The notes below the pieces were generated by a model that ran no database searches, had not been told where the DNA came from, and saw nothing but the letters and a program-made list of their open reading frames with translations. A DNA stretch of 20,649 nt, from the IMG/VR virus record IMGVR_UViG_3300020185_000312, positions 1 through 20,649 of that record; one strand, written 5' to 3'. This stretch comes from a virus. Position 1 is the stretch's first letter. Each line of letters begins with the position of its first letter. A program made the translations under genes and the position numbers. Shown here piece after piece: positions 2,721-15,516 of this stretch.

Positions 2721-2993
2721 ATGAAAAAACTAAACACTATTTTATACATTCTAATTTTGAGTTTCTTAATTACAGGATGTGCAGACGTAAGCCCTAACGC
2801 AATCGATTGCGTTAATGAATCTTCTTATGGATTCTTTGGGGGTTTATGGCATGGACTAATATCAATATTTTCTTTTATAGGAAGCCTGTTTATGGATGAT
2901 GTGGCAGTGTATGCCTATAACAACAATGGAGCCTTTTATGATTTTGGTTTTTTACTGGGGGTTGGGGCTTTTGCTTCTCGTGCGACAAAGTAG
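2721..2993 (+). CDS. small lipoprotein-like membrane protein
   Basis: The 90-residue product starts with a signal peptide (KKLNTILYILILSFLITGC) whose lipobox L-I-T-G-C would make C20 the lipidated residue. The mature part has a hydrophobic stretch with FFGGLWHGLISIFSFIGSLF at about 38-57 and a second, Gly/Phe-rich one near the C-terminus (YDFGFLLGVGAF). The arrangement GLWHG-I-I-S-FIGSLF followed by a NNNG-FYDFGF motif resembles a small conserved protein family that I recall from bacterial genomes; its function is unknown to me. It follows the helicase by 4 bases and directly precedes the first DUF1566 unit, 4 bases after its stop. It could be a host-derived gene carried with the variable-protein array, for instance a membrane partner, but that is inference. 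Confidence 0.7.
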   Translation: MKKLNTILYILILSFLITGCADVSPNAIDCVNESSYGFFGGLWHGLISIFSFIGSLFMDDVAVYAYNNNGAFYDFGFLLGVGAFASRATK

Positions 2994-2997
2994 TAAT

Positions 2998-3321
2998 TTG
3001 ACAATTACAAAACACATATTACTAGAAGACAGAAAGTCAATCAACGGACTAGAAGTGTCTCATAATCTAGGGTCAATGAATTGGCATGAAGCAAAAATTG
3101 CTTGTAAAAAATTAGGACTAGGATGGAGATTGCCAACAAAAGACGAATTAAATATGCTTTATGAAAATAAGGAAGAAATTGGCGGTTTTGCTAATGTCAA
3201 CTATTGGAGTTCTACGGAGTACGGTAACGCCAGTGCGTGGAAGCAGAGTTTCGGCAGTGGTTTCCAGAACTTCAACTTTAAGGCCAGCCTCAACTATGTT
3301 CGCGCTGTTCGGGCTTCTTAA
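2998..3321 (+). CDS. DUF1566/C-type-lectin-like variable protein, unit 1
   Basis: First of three tandem genes of identical length (107 residues). The fold signature is DUF1566/Fibrobacter major paralogue type: NWHEAKIACKKLGLGWRLPT at 28-47, E50-L51, IGGF at 61-64, YWSSTE at 69-74 and the C-terminal YVRAVRAS. These domains adopt C-type-lectin-like folds and are known targets of diversity-generating retroelements. Residues 66-68 and 75-99 differ sharply between units while interleaved A80, W81, Q83, F85, G88, Q90 and K95 are fixed. There is no ATG; the only sensible start is TTG at 2998, also conserved in the other units. An ATG-initiated extension upstream was rejected because it is a shadow of the lipoprotein gene. 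The N-terminus TITKHILLED contains L-L-E, a possible prohead-protease site. Confidence 0.75.
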   Translation: MTITKHILLEDRKSINGLEVSHNLGSMNWHEAKIACKKLGLGWRLPTKDELNMLYENKEEIGGFANVNYWSSTEYGNASAWKQSFGSGFQNFNFKASLNYVRAVRAS

Positions 3322-3341
3322 CAATTTAACTATTTAACCAT

Positions 3342-3665
3342 TTGACAATTACAAAACACATACTACTAGAAGGCAAAAAGTCAATCAATGGATTAGAAGT
3401 GTCTCATATTTTGGGTATATTGAATTGGTATGACGCAAAAATTGCTTGTCAAAAATTAGGAGCAGGATGGAGATTGCCAACAATAAAGGAATTGAATATG
3501 TTTTATGAAAACAGGGAAGAAATTGGCGGTTTTGCTAGTTTCAGCTATTGGAGTTCTACGGAGAACGATAACTACTATGCGTGGAGTCAGAATTTCACCA
3601 ATGGTATACAGAGCAACTTCAATAAGTACGGCACTGGCTACGTGCGTGCTATTCGGGCTTCTTAA
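3342..3665 (+). CDS. DUF1566/C-type-lectin-like variable protein, unit 2
   Basis: Second unit, exactly 344 bp downstream of unit 1 and again 107 residues from a TTG start. It keeps the same scaffold (NWYDAKIACQKLGAGWRLPT, IGGF, YWSSTE, the A-W, Q, F, G, Q and K anchors) but has a different variable set, for example N-D-N-Y-Y at 75-79 and Y-G-T-G at 96-99. It also carries silent and conservative changes in its constant tail (GTG CGT GCT ATT instead of GTT CGC GCT GTT), showing it is an older duplicate rather than a recent copy. The 20-base spacer between units contains TTTAACTATTTAACC and no strong ribosome binding site. It is probably translated by coupling with unit 1, or else is a silent cassette; the sequence does not decide. 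Confidence 0.7.
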   Translation: MTITKHILLEGKKSINGLEVSHILGILNWYDAKIACQKLGAGWRLPTIKELNMFYENREEIGGFASFSYWSSTENDNYYAWSQNFTNGIQSNFNKYGTGYVRAIRAS

Positions 3666-3685
3666 CAATTTAACTATTTAACCAT

Positions 3686-4009
3686 TTGACAATTACAAAA
3701 CACATACTAATAGAAGGCAAAAAGTCAGTCAACGGACTAGAAGTTTCTGATAATTTGGGTATAATGAATTGGTATGACGCAAAAATTTACTGCAAAAAAT
3801 TAGGAGCAGGATGGAGATTGCCAACAAAAGACGAATTGAATATGCTTTATGAAAACAAGGAAGAAATTGGCGGTTTTGCTAGTAACTACTATTGGAGTTC
3901 TACGGAGGTCGATTACAACTATGCGTGGATTCAGAATTTCTTCAATGGTTACCAGAGCAACAACAATAAGAACTACTACAACTATGTTCGCGCTGTTCGG
4001 GCTTCTTAA
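3686..4009 (+). CDS. DUF1566/C-type-lectin-like variable protein, unit 3
   Basis: Third unit, again 344 bp on, 107 residues, TTG start. Its variable segment is closest to what a DGR template would encode: many AAC, AAT and TAC codons, giving S-N-N-N-K-N-Y-Y-N at 91-99. The scaffold residues are unchanged. The N-terminal peptide is TITKHILIEGKKS, whose HILIE is identical to the start of the capsid-like ORF at 12524 (GSHILIEK). After the stop the unit-spacing sequence is repeated once more (CAATTTAACTATTTAAC) and then the tRNA promoter begins. Function is likely ligand or receptor binding by analogy with other DUF1566 DGR targets, perhaps on the virion or host surface; that is inferred from family knowledge. 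Confidence 0.72.
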   Translation: MTITKHILIEGKKSVNGLEVSDNLGIMNWYDAKIYCKKLGAGWRLPTKDELNMLYENKEEIGGFASNYYWSSTEVDYNYAWIQNFFNGYQSNNNKNYYNYVRAVRAS

Positions 4010-4067
4010 CAATTTAACTATTTAACAATTAAAATAAATATATTTTTTATCTAATGTAATATTTTTA

Positions 4068-4124: not shown

Positions 4125-4201
4125 GGACGGGTAGCTCAGCTGGATAGAGCATCTGCCTTCTAAGCAGACGGTCGAAGGTTCGAATCCTTCTCCGTTCACC
4201 A
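4125..4201 (+). tRNA. tRNA-Arg (TCT)
   Basis: A full cloverleaf can be folded: acceptor GGACGGG with TCCGTTC, D-arm GCTC/GAGC, anticodon stem TCTGC/GCAGA around loop CTTCTAA (anticodon TCT, reading AGA), and T-arm GAAGG-TTCGAAT-CCTTC. The discriminator is A4198 and CCA is encoded at 4199-4201. AGA is a favoured arginine codon in this AT-rich sequence, so the gene likely supplements the host pool. Confidence 0.95.
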
Positions 4202-4207
4202 TTTAAT

Positions 4208-4281
4208 GGGCCTCTAGCTCAGCTGGTTAGAGCAACTGACTCATAATCAGTAGGTCACAGGTTCGAGTCCTGTGGGGCCCA
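4208..4281 (+). tRNA. tRNA with CAT anticodon (Met or lysidine-Ile)
   Basis: Cloverleaf: acceptor GGGCCTC with GGGGCCC (including a T-G pair), D-arm GCTC/GAGC, anticodon stem ACTGA/TCAGT around CTCATAA (anticodon CAT), T-arm ACAGG-TTCGAGT-CCTGT, discriminator A4281. CCA is not encoded (GAT follows), unlike the neighbouring tRNA-Arg 6 bases upstream. Whether it is elongator Met or Ile2 (needing TilS modification) cannot be settled by eye. Its last 13 bases recur at 5086-5098. Confidence 0.92.
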
Positions 4282-4339
4282 GATAGCCAAAGTTAAAACA
4301 CTTGCACGTAGTGGCTATCGCACATCCATTTTTGGATGA

Positions 4340-5023
4340 CTAAGATTTTAACAAATTGTTCTTTGAATTTATTACCTCGGTGATGATGTCAAGATACTTT
4401 TGAGCATTTTTTGGTTTGAAGTATTTTAGCTGAGAAGCATCAATGAGAAGTAATTCAATTTTATTCTCAAGACATGCCTGGAATTTTCTTTGGTCGTTGT
4501 TTTGAATTTGTTTGAGCTTATCTTCTCCAAATATGGGTTCGTAATGGAATATGCCATTAAGTTCAATTGCAAGTTTGAAGCTCGGAATGTAGATGTCAAG
4601 TTCAGAATTTATTGCATCCTTTTGGTTGTAGTGTATTTCTAAATCTGGATATAAAGTTGAAAGTTGCCCTTCTAACCACGCTTCAAGTTTTGACCTACGA
4701 GTGCCATGAGTTTTGTGTTTATTATTGTAAGTAGCAGCACATGATTGTGAACAAAATTGGTTTTTGTATTTTTTTACTTGACTTAGGTCTCTATATGCTT
4801 CTTTGCCGCAGTTGGAACATTTACATTTAATTTTATTGTTTCCTCTGTTGTTTTGGCATTTTCTGCTACAGAATTTGATTTTGTTTTTTCTACTTCCGTT
4901 TAAGTAGGCAGTAATAAATCTTTTGTCTTTGTAGAAAGTTTCTTTGCAAACATAGCATTGGCATGGCAGTTTATCCATTCCTTTTGCTTGATTGTATTCT
5001 TCATCAGAGTATAATGGTTTCAT
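4340..5023 (-). CDS. Vsr-like EDxHD homing endonuclease with two zinc knuckles
   Basis: The 227-residue protein begins with two zinc-binding modules: C23-x2-C26 with C52-x3-C56, and C69-x2-C72 with C91-x3-C95. The C-terminal half is a very-short-patch-repair-like nuclease domain: E114 in SKLEAWLEGQL, D143 in SELDIYIPSFKLAIELNG (E154), H160 in IFHYEP and D177 in NNDQRK. This spacing fits the EDxHD class exemplified by I-Bth0305I, a phage homing endonuclease. Such enzymes cut intron- or gene-lacking alleles so that their own gene is copied in. The gene lies opposite in strand to the adjacent tRNAs, between a tRNA 3' end and a second 13-bp copy of it (5086-5098), which suggests recent insertion. 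A 9-bp inverted repeat just before the start may limit translation. It may be free-standing or part of a larger element interrupting the structured RNA region. Confidence 0.85.
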   Translation of the reverse strand: MKPLYSDEEYNQAKGMDKLPCQCYVCKETFYKDKRFITAYLNGSRKNKIKFCSRKCQNNRGNNKIKCKCSNCGKEAYRDLSQVKKYKNQFCSQSCAATYNNKHKTHGTRRSKLEAWLEGQLSTLYPDLEIHYNQKDAINSELDIYIPSFKLAIELNGIFHYEPIFGEDKLKQIQNNDQRKFQACLENKIELLLIDASQLKYFKPKNAQKYLDIITEVINSKNNLLKS

Positions 5024-12523: not shown

Positions 12524-12853
12524 ATGGGTAGTCATATTTTGATAGAGAAGTGTGGAAACATTAGTTTGGAAATAACCTCTGTTCAAGTAACAGGAGAAAG
12601 TAGGCCACTAAGAGCACGCTGGACTCCTGAGCTTGCTCAAGATTTAGACGCTTTAGACTACTACACCAATAGTTATCAGCCAGAAGAGCCTGAAAATGTA
12701 TATAAAAAGATATTATTAACTGAAAAATATATACCTTGTAATTTTAAAAGTATCGATATCGAAGAAGAGCTTTCTAATATTTTAGCCACAGAAGTTGCAG
12801 CATCTATTAATTCAAATATATTCGGTAGTTTAAGTGATTTGGAAAATGAATGA
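12524..12853 (+). CDS. small ORF with two gp23 (major capsid)-like segments
   Basis: The 109-residue product contains two stretches that read like the C-terminal part of T4-type major capsid protein gp23: ISLEITSVQVTGESRPLRARWTPELAQDL around 13-41 and SIDIEEELSNILATEVAASIN around 76-96. In gp23 these are almost adjacent (the consensus is roughly K-A-x-Y/W-T-x-E-L-A-Q-D-L, then E-x-E-L-x-N-I-L-x-T-E-I). Here about 35 residues separate them, including ENVYKKILLTEKYIP (58-71). The N-terminus GSHILIEK repeats the HILIE of the DUF1566 proteins. A whole capsid protein would exceed 400 residues, so this is a mini-gene or a remnant. The frame is intact and the next ORF's ATG overlaps its stop, which argues for expression. 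TTATCTTG lies before the ATG as a possible promoter element. Confidence 0.7.
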   Translation: MGSHILIEKCGNISLEITSVQVTGESRPLRARWTPELAQDLDALDYYTNSYQPEEPENVYKKILLTEKYIPCNFKSIDIEEELSNILATEVAASINSNIFGSLSDLENE

Positions 12854-13169
12854 TTCTATAAAATTATATTTAGAAGAGTGGAATAATTTAGTTTATCCTA
12901 AAAAAGAAAACGTATACAAAAGAAAACTTCTTGTTGAAAAGGTTGAAAAACATCCTAGGATTACTTTCCCTTTTGTAAGGGATGTGGCAGCAAATTTAGT
13001 AAGCGATTCACTTGTTACTGTTCAACCTCTTGAAGCACCAACGGGTATATTGTTTTATATGGACTATAATAGTAATTCAAATAAAAGAATGCTATTAATT
13101 GAAAGAAGAAAAAGAAGAAGAAGAAGAAGAAGAAGGCCAGAAAATGAAGGAAAAAAAATTTATAGATAG
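12846..13169 (+). CDS. small ORF with gp23 N-terminal-like segment and poly-Arg tail
   Basis: From the ATG overlapping the previous stop (ATGAATGA) the product is 107 residues. After ENVYKRKLLVEKVEK (21-35), nearly the same motif as in the preceding ORF, comes FPFVRDVAANLVSDSLVTVQ and then PLEAPTGILFYMDY (41-74). This matches the gp23 core signature (x-V-R-R-x-x-x-x-L-V-A-x-x-x-V-Q-P-M-x-x-P-T-G-x-x-F). A further KRMLLIE (80-86) follows and then the frame runs through a GAA/AGA triplet tract as R-R-K and eight further arginines before stopping. In the frame used by the next ORF the same tract reads E-rich. The poly-Arg end therefore looks like the result of a one-base slip in the tract; before it, this ORF and the next may have been one gene. 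Confidence 0.62.
   Translation: MNDSIKLYLEEWNNLVYPKKENVYKRKLLVEKVEKHPRITFPFVRDVAANLVSDSLVTVQPLEAPTGILFYMDYNSNSNKRMLLIERRKRRRRRRRRPENEGKKIYR
13101..13135 (+). repeat. GAA microsatellite at the junction of two ORFs
   Basis: Seven perfect GAA units at 13114-13134, extended imperfectly upstream to 13101 (GAAAGAAGAAAAA). The tract encodes poly-Arg in one frame and poly-Glu in another. Changes in length not divisible by three would switch the upstream ORF between ending here and continuing into the sheath-like ORF. Confidence 0.8.
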
Positions 13170-13386
13170 CTGGATTAAGACATACAAAAGAACTTTATTA
13201 ATTGAAAAGTATGTTGAACATAATGTTCGAGTTTTAGAAACTGATTTCACTGTTTTAGGTTATGACTTAATCACATCTGATTCAACTATAATCGGAATTA
13301 GCTCTAGAGCAGTCGGCGGTCCAATTAATTATCCTACACAAATAAGAAGCTCAGAAGAATTTGGAGAAATTTTTGGTAATGTGTAA
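13144..13386 (+). CDS. small ORF with tail-sheath-like N-terminal segment
   Basis: From ATG 13144 the product is 80 residues; a longer version from TTG 13099 would add a Glu-rich leader read from the GAA tract. TYKRTLLIEKYVEHN at 13-27 repeats the motif of the two preceding ORFs. The remainder, with S53-S-R-A-V-G-G-P-I-N-Y-P-T-Q-I and S69-S-E-E-F-G-E-I-F-G, closely follows the N-terminal pattern of contractile tail sheath proteins (V-G-x-A-x-x-G-P-V-N-x-P-x-x-I-x-S-x-x-x-F-x-x-x-F-G). Sheath proteins are several hundred residues long, so only a fragment is present. The frame overlaps the end of the poly-Arg ORF. It may be a decoy or interaction peptide, or a fragment left by recombination. 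Confidence 0.65.
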   Translation: MKEKKFIDSWIKTYKRTLLIEKYVEHNVRVLETDFTVLGYDLITSDSTIIGISSRAVGGPINYPTQIRSSEEFGEIFGNV

Positions 13387-13852: not shown

Positions 13853-14713
13853 TTATCCTATTTTTTCTATTTCAGAAATGATTTTATTTGCTTGAATTTG
13901 TAATTCTTTTATTTTTTCATTTCTTGAAGCTTCTTCTTTGAAAATTCTTCTAATTTCACTTTCACTAATAGGTTCATGATTTTCTGTAAACTTACCACTT
14001 ACACCAGCCATTTTTCTGTCTTTATATGCTGCTGCCAATGTAGGCTTTCCTTTTAGTTCTACAATTCTAATATCTTGCTTGCTAACATCTAATCCATCCC
14101 ATTTATTTTTAGGAGTTAATACATTATCAACAAAAGATTGAACTCTTGATTTTAAATCAGCCTTTTCTTCATCAGTCAACTCTCTTACAACTTGACCAGT
14201 GGTTAATTTGTCTAGACCTTTCCATTCTATCATTTCACCTTTATCTATTGCAGTTTCAACAGCTTTCTTAGCAAGAGATATAGCTTCCTCTCCTTTCTTT
14301 GGGTCTTTTTTAAACATGCTCATTAAACCTTCTTCAACACCTTCGTTTTCTTCAATGCCTTCATTTTCTTCAACGCCTTCATTTTCTTCAATGCCTTCGT
14401 TTTCTTCAACGCCTTCATTTTCTTCAATGCCTTCGTTTTCAGCCTTTAATTCAGCTTTATCCTCATCAGACATTGCTTTTGCAGCATCTTCTAATTCTTT
14501 CATTGCATCAGCCATCTCTTTAGCTTCTGGTGTTTCTGGCATTTCTTCCGCAACTTCAGCAGCCGCTTCTATATCCACTTCTTCTTCCATGCTATAATTT
14601 TCCTTCAATGCTTCTTGAATTGTTGCTTTTTTAGATTTTAAAGATTGTATTTTTAAAAATCTATATGCCTCTTCTTTTATTATTTGATTAAGCTCTTTTT
14701 TTGAAATTTTCAT
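13853..14713 (-). CDS. acidic repeat protein with IxE tag (scaffold- or internal-protein-like)
   Basis: The 286-residue protein starts MKISKKELNQIIKEEA and has a second conserved block KKATIQEALKEN at 28-39; both contain (I/L)-x-E followed by A or E. The neighbouring gene at 15516 shares MKISK-x-EL-x-x-x-I and ATIQE-S. Then comes an Ala/Glu/Met-rich helical region (EAAAEVAEEMPETPEAKEMADAM), six copies of ENEG(I/V)E at 92-127, a globular region from about 130 to 240 with GLMSMFKKDPKKGEEA and LTDEEKADLKSRVQSFVDNV, and a C-terminal IFKEEASRNEKIKELQIQANKIISEIEKIG coiled-coil-like helix with another KEE-A. High acidity and tags recall T4 core/internal proteins. It is 2 bases downstream of the 15516 gene, so co-transcribed. 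The exact function is unknown. Confidence 0.75.
   Translation of the reverse strand: MKISKKELNQIIKEEAYRFLKIQSLKSKKATIQEALKENYSMEEEVDIEAAAEVAEEMPETPEAKEMADAMKELEDAAKAMSDEDKAELKAENEGIEENEGVEENEGIEENEGVEENEGIEENEGVEEGLMSMFKKDPKKGEEAISLAKKAVETAIDKGEMIEWKGLDKLTTGQVVRELTDEEKADLKSRVQSFVDNVLTPKNKWDGLDVSKQDIRIVELKGKPTLAAAYKDRKMAGVSGKFTENHEPISESEIRRIFKEEASRNEKIKELQIQANKIISEIEKIG
14333..14440 (-). repeat. six 18-bp tandem repeats coding ENEG(I/V)E
   Basis: Six in-frame copies of an 18-base unit alternate between I and V versions (so three 36-base pairs), within the acidic repeat protein. The alternation indicates growth by duplication of a two-unit block. Confidence 0.9.
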
Positions 14714-14715
14714 GA

Positions 14716-15516
14716 TTATTTATTTTGTAATATTTCTTTTATTTCCTCACTAACATTGCCACCATTAGACTCTATTGCTTCAGACAAAGTCTTTAACTGA
14801 CTAATTAATTGCTCTTTTTTAGTGTTGTCCTTATAAGACTTAACAGCTTTTTTAGCTTCTGATAAAATAAATGTTTTCAACTCTTTTTTAGTATAAGATT
14901 CTTTTAAATCTTTTTCTATATTACTTCCATCAATCTCTATCCCAGCAGCAATTCTATCTGTAGGCTCTTCAGCGTCTTCTTCAGGCATTCTTTCATGAAC
15001 TTCAGCTTTAGCTTGACCAGCAGTGTGAGAATTTCCTTTTTTCTCATCTCCAGCAGAAACATAAGTTTTAGCTTTTTCGTCTACTAATTTATCTTCAGAG
15101 TTCATTTCTAAATCTTCAACTCTTTCATCAAATGGTCCAGAAGCATCTGTTCCTTGAATATCTTTTTTAGATGTAAAATTAGCTTTAGCCTGTCCTTTAG
15201 TGTGTGTATCTGCACCTTTCTTTGCGCCAGCATCAACCTTTACAGCTACCGAAGCCTTTTTGTCAGAACCTTCAACATTATCTTTTGAGTTCATTTTTGG
15301 CATTTTTTCTACTTCGCCTTCTTTTTCTAATTTTTTAGAAGGGTCTTTATATACCAATGCCTTATCAGAGTCGCCTAGTTCATCATTTGAATTCATATCA
15401 ACATCGTATACGTTCATTGAATCTGTAACCGCTTCTGACTCTTGAATAGTAGCCCTTTTTATAGACTTTGCTTCATCTCTAATCATGTCTATAAGTTCTT
15501 GTTTGCTAATTTTCAT
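14716..15516 (-). CDS. tagged acidic/basic repeat protein, paralogous N-terminus
   Basis: The 266-residue protein starts MKISKQELIDMIRDEAKSIKRATIQES, paralogous over about 30 residues with the following gene. The middle is low-complexity and contains three related blocks beginning MNSNDELGDSDKALVY (about 41-56), MNSKDNVEGSDKKAS (about 75-89) and MNSEDKLVDEKAKTYV (about 139-154); the last two go on to D(A/E)KKG-x-x-HT-x-GQAKA. After D-x-A-A-G-I-E-I-D a C-terminal tag-like helix follows (YTKKELKTFILSEAKKAVKSYK). Nothing catalytic is visible. Repeats, tag and pairing with another acidic protein suggest a core or internal virion protein cut by the prohead protease. TATAAATA/TATTTATA lies at 15554-15561 upstream. 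Confidence 0.74.
   Translation of the reverse strand: MKISKQELIDMIRDEAKSIKRATIQESEAVTDSMNVYDVDMNSNDELGDSDKALVYKDPSKKLEKEGEVEKMPKMNSKDNVEGSDKKASVAVKVDAGAKKGADTHTKGQAKANFTSKKDIQGTDASGPFDERVEDLEMNSEDKLVDEKAKTYVSAGDEKKGNSHTAGQAKAEVHERMPEEDAEEPTDRIAAGIEIDGSNIEKDLKESYTKKELKTFILSEAKKAVKSYKDNTKKEQLISQLKTLSEAIESNGGNVSEEIKEILQNK

Follow-up and report, generated by a model that had tools for sequence, protein, structure and literature searches.

Tandem target genes in a large phage suggest a virus that lets bacteria diversify its proteins

The array, its flanks and its phage

The window, by which we mean the whole stretch of DNA analysed here, makes up an entire virus record of 20,649 bases, with three tandem genes of the Lcl_C/DUF1566 family at 2998–4009 on the forward strand: unit 1 at 2998–3321, unit 2 at 3342–3665 and unit 3 at 3686–4009. 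Each encodes 107 aa from a TTG start, translation from that codon being an inference. The first-pass annotation, made from the letters of the window without database searches, had described three 344-bp tandem units with a DUF1566 domain of C-type-lectin-like fold, and this description holds: the start-to-start spacing measures 344 bp, all three units pass the curated cut-off of the Lcl_C/DUF1566 profile (PF07603; 47.6, 48.0 and 55.5 bits against 34.9), and the AlphaFold2 model of unit 3 (pLDDT 87, with the first ten residues below 50) matches C-type lectins, as far as a predicted structure can tell. Its best Foldseek likeness is the C-terminal domain of Lcl from Legionella pneumophila (PDB 8q4e; TM 0.77, profile E 2.8e-15), which has the fold and family of the phage unit, and C-type lectins come next. 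This fold is common to several solved targets of diversity-generating retroelements (DGRs), according to the accessible parts of two reports (PMC6328139, PMC5006420). Unit 1 also sits inside a longer open frame (2896–3321, +), which contributes an additional hydrophobic stretch and runs across part of the lipoprotein gene in a different frame; this longer frame is open in the sister phages G001 and L184 too, and may reflect chance or a frameshift fusion.

The array lies between a helicase/lipoprotein gene pair and two tRNA genes. On its left, a small lipoprotein-like ORF (phrog_30702; 2721–2993, +), conserved in the sister phages L178, L179, L184 and L191, is followed by the boundary direct repeat TTTGACAATTA at 2997–3007 (+); on its right, tRNA-Arg and tRNA-Met (4125–4282, +) adjoin the array, and the same flank is found in phages in which the site is empty. 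Behind each unit comes a tail. That of unit 1 (3313–3351, +) consists of octamer-spaced TTAACAAT/TTAACTAT/TTAACCAT/TTGACAAT, like the repeats 3′ of bacterial variable regions of the same DGR family; that of unit 2 (3657–3695, +) combines octamer repeats with a TTTGACAATTA at 3685–3695, and that of unit 3 (4001–4034, +) holds the right boundary repeat, a variant (TTTAACAATTA) at 4021–4031. An octamer tail follows most phage units, with 0–4 copies among the 12 counted. Copy number at this one locus is three in the window, five in G001, one in L184 and zero in L179 and L191. In the empty site of L191 the left flank runs straight into the right flank with a single copy of TTTGACAATTA, which is what recombination between direct repeats would leave. 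Units were present in two of the 17 loci returned by a helicase search, some of which end at a contig edge; one of them, L194, has a match to no more than a small part of the helicase.

An HNH/homing-endonuclease-like gene (phrog_559, phrog_3339; 4340–5023, −) adjoins the array. It has no match when the flanks are compared with those of L179 and L191, in which the site is empty, and the corresponding place in G001 is taken by a different ORF, zinc-ribbon/nuclease-like by eye.

Scanning of 2.9 million viral contigs returned the same units, which we name by record, in G001 (five in tandem, A1–A5), G002 (two, B1 and B2), G003 (one, C1), G007 (one, D1) and G008 (two, E1 and E2); those of the window are W1–W3. 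G001 is syntenic with the window, their DNA being about 80%–93% identical along long stretches. The predicted proteins of G001 (62 of 102 ORFs) and G002 (66 of 88) are collinear with different parts of G452, a 232-kb record to which G859, G860, G007 and G003 also map (G008 was not part of this mapping), and this collinearity indicates that G001, G002, G859, G860, G007 and G003 are fragments of one large-phage group. It also rules out that G002 is an unrelated phage; on sequence evidence, G002 and G001 are the same phage type at two loci. The window itself matches G452 in three of its 29 ORFs, with almost nothing outside the helicase end. Hence, the window and G001 seem to extend past the end of G452, and genomes of 250 kb or more are suggested. 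The records that carry the cassette measure 20.6–88 kb, and none is known to be complete. In G452 (viral record 3300028416_000004), ORFs at about 3–16 kb look by eye like bacterial metabolic genes, for instance one resembling an acyl-CoA dehydrogenase, and that end may be host-derived or mis-assembled.

Three consecutive small ORFs elsewhere in the window (12524–13383) each carry a fragment of a virion protein: residues 132–164 and 5–51 of the Gp23 major capsid protein (Pfam E 1e-10 and 5e-7) and, weakly, a piece of tail sheath (phrog_23, E 0.004). A K-x-LL-x-E-K-like motif is also seen in these ORFs, two of the three recur in G001 at 80274 and 80713, and one idea is that such pieces are decoys for capsid-sensing defences. 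Otherwise dissimilar proteins encoded at 400–855, 13853–14713 and 14716–15516 (all −) have in common a short helix-like segment close to one terminus, of the form MKI(T/S)KxxIRQLIKES (repeat family D3), which occurs in several window proteins. An N-terminal KHILLE motif, counted with a loose pattern, was found in four of 39 ORFs in the window, 3/148 in G001, 2/121 in G002, 0/141 in G859, 2/212 in G860, 5/354 in G452 and 3/704 in G009; that it marks a prohead-protease site is an idea we dropped, there being only these loose counts behind it. G859 (14245–14691, −) and G860 (43276–43743, −), members of the same phage group, each encode one Lcl_C-like protein whose N-terminus (RHLILENG) is similar; it is possibly a non-variable relative of the units.

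Variable regions and bacterial templates

The variable regions of the three units lie at 3181–3312 (132 nt), 3525–3656 and 3869–4000 (all +), and each ends 9 nt before the end of its gene, stop codon included. As had been noted at first pass, 21 codons within residues 66–99 differ among the units, and in 18 of these the third base is constant (the exceptions are codons 82, 89 and 98). Variable sites fall on codon positions 1, 2 and 3 in the proportions 15/20/5 in codons 65–101, compared with 14/8/10 in codons 1–64. The accompanying statement that the units encode the same scaffold needs qualifying: the scaffolds diverge at 26 codons ahead of the variable stretch and at four beyond it, and the window units share 73–82 of 107 residues over the whole protein and 52–55 of the first 65. 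Because the scaffolds differ as well, the array is not a fresh triplication.

A template was predicted by aligning the phage units and setting the variable sites to A, and was written down before any bacterial template had been seen. A search with 44 bases of it, one codon position being set to N and at most three mismatches allowed, matched three of 399 Flavobacteriales genomes, exactly in G802 and G748 and with one mismatch in G846, and the reversed control matched none. Among 395 Bacteroidia genomes, a 38-base piece gave three matches, namely G802 again, G084 (exact) and G317, where the match is a variable region with three mismatches; a longer template pattern had no match in nine genomes from the order of G317. 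The template repeat that the first-pass annotation had expected does exist, in bacterial genomes and beside a DGR-type reverse transcriptase (RT). At each of the four template loci (L269, L270, L271 and L211) the gene order is Lcl_C target, bAvd (Avd-like), template and RT, with Pfam bAvd detected at all four. The RT profile, made from eight presumed DGR RTs (four viral and four bacterial, chosen by active-site motif and not classified further), gives E-values of 7e-168 for L269, 3e-168 for L271, 4e-91 and 6e-73 for L270, and 4e-61 for L211. The RT of L270, the locus with the best-matching template, is split over two frames; in L211 the RT is cut by the contig end and the target ORF breaks at the start of the variable region. 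Both contigs are short (5.7 kb for L270 and 3.6 kb for L211). L269 lies among recF, ribD and peroxiredoxin genes, and hence is chromosomal. Both targets scanned, those of L269 and L271, have Lcl_C and Collagen matches in Pfam (the Collagen match of L271, at 26.7 bits, is just below the cut-off), and the targets of L269, L271 and L211 have by eye a probable signal peptide. The template was seen in four genomes only, and no link to the host of the window phage has been shown.

Octamer-spaced TTTAAC/TTTATC repeats stand directly 3′ of the variable regions in the window (3313–3351) and in L269, L271, L211, L217, L219, L221 and L230, and seven of 16 bacterial members add the hairpin ACCGC-GNA-GCGGT 34–55 nt downstream of the variable region. 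Repeats and hairpin together are likely a target-recognition element; they were not seen after the templates looked at.

Variation among the window units tracks the adenines of the bacterial template. When the units are set against the template of L270, 36 template-A columns are variable and 15 invariant, compared with six and 75 for non-A columns (Fisher p = 2e-14); repeated with the template of L211, the test gives p = 3e-13. The restriction of variation to template adenines is strong, not absolute, and the adenine-directed mutagenesis previously proposed from the window alone is borne out. At non-A positions, W1 and W3 each agree with the L270 template at 80/81 and W2 at 74/81. The single mismatch of W1 and W3 falls at a codon for which L269, L271 and L211 have the base seen in these units, and W1, W3, A2 and B1 agree with a composite template at 81/81. 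The 3′ constants of W1 and W3 are like those of L270 and L271. Those of W2 belong to a different template type, nearest to L211 (three non-A mismatches versus 7–8 to the other templates), and those of D1 are like L269 (two versus 7–9). Judged by these matches, different units carry the 3′ constants of different bacterial templates. Three units, B2, E1 and E2, fit none of the four templates (15, 27 and 15 non-A mismatches to the best); they were left out of an 11-unit test and scored separately for mismatches to the templates.

Pairs of units from different phages add to this picture. W1 and A2, the latter from the sister phage G001, have no differences over 180 scaffold positions and 24 in the variable region, 23 of them at template A; here the phage scaffold has stayed as it was and all change lies in the variable region. 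W3 and A5, counted after an extra codon of A5 had been removed, differ at 2/180 scaffold positions and at 22 positions of the variable region, of which 19 are at template A. The variable regions of W1 and B1 are identical throughout, on scaffolds that differ at 23/180 nt. The three comparisons together indicate that variable regions have been both rewritten and exchanged. All are comparisons between records, and read-level population variation lies outside the data.

Search for a reverse transcriptase and template in phage records

The first-pass annotation had proposed looking for an RT and a template repeat in the full phage genome, and had held that their absence from the complete genome and its relatives would refute a DGR. 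A complete genome was not at hand. The RT profile detected no RT in 11 phage records totaling 1.13 Mb (the window, G001, G002, G003, G007, G008, G009, G452, G459, G859 and G860), all fragments or of unknown completeness, and a composite template scan of the same 11 records returned variable regions only, which keep 23–37 of the 51 template adenines. Likewise, RVT_1 was not found in G000–G003, in 28 viral records (15 of them reached via the helicase search) or in G859 and G860; in the wider Lcl_C family it was present in seven of 50 records (six viral and one bacterial), and in neither G007 nor G008. A blastn search with the last variable region against G001 and G002 gave only the units and short chance pieces. 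Cassette-bearing and sister fragments cover G452 coordinates of roughly 22–136 and 152–229 kb with no RT there, and the remaining coordinates are covered by G452 alone, without RT or units.

One half of the template pattern had no match in the viral contigs. The other half, in a form that also fits the templates of L269–L271, matched 57 of the 2.9 million; these are distant, DGR-like sequences (the best matching at 105/151 positions), and hence no template donor is seen among them. The best of the 55 that were measurable agrees with the predicted template at 96 of 120 first bases, compared with 114 for L269, 118 for L270 and 117 for L271. GenBank phages yielded only two distant matches.

A 327-kb record, G009 (viral record 3300044644_001125), has 48 matches to the Lcl_C unit profile, some scattered singly and others in tandem, with about ten in the longest run. 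No RT was detected in it with the RT profile and no template was found by the composite template scan. By eye, its variable-looking positions resemble DGR variable regions.

The search for RT and template was thus negative in the phage records scanned and positive in bacterial genomes, in one case among housekeeping genes. This weakens the version of the reading that places the machinery inside the phage, and the DGR signature itself stands. Since the phage records are fragments or of unknown completeness, the absence of machinery is strong evidence, not final.

How the variation could arise

That the array units are DGR targets, as had been proposed, is supported by comparison of sequences. 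We think it probable, with room for doubt, that they are RT-less phage target arrays diversified in trans by chromosomal DGRs of Flavobacteriales-type bacteria. The units would be free-standing C-type-lectin (Lcl_C) domains in an expandable tandem array of a large phage, and an infected Flavobacteriales-type host would supply template, Avd and RT from its chromosomal DGR. Template RNA would be copied with errors at A (mutagenic retrohoming), and the cDNA would replace the stretch from GGCGGTTTTGC to GTTCGCGCTGTTCGG in a phage unit, homing both into the bacterial collagen-like/Lcl_C gene and into phage units that share the ends. The bacterial DGRs have collagen-like/Lcl_C surface adhesin-like proteins as targets of their own. 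Copies in the phage would be gained, lost and exchanged through recombination between direct repeats or between units, and the array would end up with copies holding different variants. The action of bacterial machinery on the phage during infection is inferred, as is the identity of the host; the product is likewise inferred to be a binding protein that varies, which would either bind a receptor or act as a mimic or decoy of the host adhesin domain.

The chief result against diversification in trans is the absence of a hairpin from the phage units. Eight of 16 bacterial variable regions have a GC-rich hairpin no more than 100 nt away, seven of the eight being ACCGC-GNA-GCGGT, and none of 14 phage units has one (counts that include both units of G008 and a further region of L223); the chance level is 9/3000 shuffled tails. 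A scan with 6-bp stems gave 0/12 phage units and 3/15 bacterial regions, and one with 5-bp stems 0/12 versus 8/15. Variable regions were sought at 19 bacterial loci; L222, L226, L227 and L229 had none, and a spurious opposite-strand match in L217 was excluded. In BPP-1, a hairpin downstream of the variable region (VR) is required for efficient homing, according to the available portion of that study (PMC3240598). The missing hairpin makes capture by recombination the main rival: bacterial DGRs would diversify their own targets in cis, and phages would acquire variable regions already diversified, the conserved ends allowing homologous recombination, and then shuffle them among their own units, without retrohoming into phage DNA. 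The constant ends GGCGGTTTTGC and GTTCGCGCTGTTCGG could act as homology, and variable regions do move, W1 and B1 being identical there on different scaffolds. We nevertheless regard capture as unlikely, as the 180-nt scaffold in W1/A2 and W3/A5 remains phage-type until the variable region begins. Compared without gaps, the last 60 nt before a bacterial variable region are identical to the window units at only 14–46 of 60 positions, and imported tracts should therefore show. The tails also speak against it, with GCTTCTTAAC in ten of 14 phage units and GCTTTTTAAC in 12 of 16 bacterial targets, although the two differ by a single base. Further points against diversification in trans are that some units misfit the templates, that the bacterial DGRs are not all intact and that six viral Lcl_C-family records do have an RT.

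A DGR of the phage's own in an unsampled part of its genome, or one on another mobile element of the same host, seems to us somewhat less plausible even than capture. The cassette-bearing records are short beside their relative G452 with its 232 kb, which leaves parts unsampled, and phage DGRs are numerous (3575 viral genomes with a DGR, in the accessible part of a large survey; PMC8144416). However, the fragments placed along G452 show no RT over the two intervals given above, and the 2.9 million viral contigs yielded no close template with a pattern that fits those of L269–L271. Plain duplication of genes, with positive selection acting on the residues that bind and no DGR at all, would be in keeping with the evident tandem duplication and with scaffolds that differ too, but can hardly be entertained given the adenine rule, the constancy of third bases and the finding, next to a DGR-type RT, of a template predicted beforehand; the template match already contradicts it.

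Among known systems, the bacterial DGRs at L269, L270, L271 and L211 are like the phage array in their variable region, adenine pattern, non-adenine positions and similar octamer tail. They differ in that Avd, template and RT are carried in cis and the target protein is longer, with repeats of collagen type in L269 (and, narrowly missing the cut-off, in L271), whereas the phage has the Lcl_C domain alone in tandem, no RT or template found and no hairpin. Targets without an RT of their own have been described, in the text available for each system, from Thiohalocapsa PB-PSB1, where remote DGR targets in trans within one genome were assigned by a match at all non-adenine sites (PMC10907252), and from nanoarchaea, where partial DGRs consist of target, VR and cis elements (PMC4372165). 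In both, as far as those portions go, template and target belong to one genome; in the present case they are apart, with targets seen in phage records and templates in bacterial genomes. Phage DGRs with more than one target, such as the Tentaclins (PMC10743442), and multi-VR DGRs that include DUF1566 proteins among their targets (PMC6642488) resemble the array in having several targets but, in the excerpts of those papers that are accessible, have RT and template in cis. Among the matches listed in the open literature, with subscription papers largely outside it, there was no report of RT-less phage targets with a template in bacterial genomes. The large survey mentioned above, in its accessible part, required a repeat to lie no more than 20 kb from an RT (PMC8144416), and targets without an RT would hence be invisible to it.

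A more far-reaching version of diversification in trans, to which we give even chances, is that the phage outsources hypermutation: it would carry only tandem targets, which the chromosomal DGR of any infected flavobacterium rewrites in trans, one array thus holding the products of several templates. A template shared with the phage serves, in the host itself, a collagen-like/Lcl_C surface-type protein; the repertoire of variants kept by the phage would therefore be one of exactly the domain that is diversified in its hosts. This suggests a virus that lets bacteria diversify its proteins. Should bacterial DGRs indeed act in trans on the genes of phages, the two sides of the phage–host conflict would have DGRs as a common weapon, and phages without an RT could still evolve binding proteins at DGR speed.
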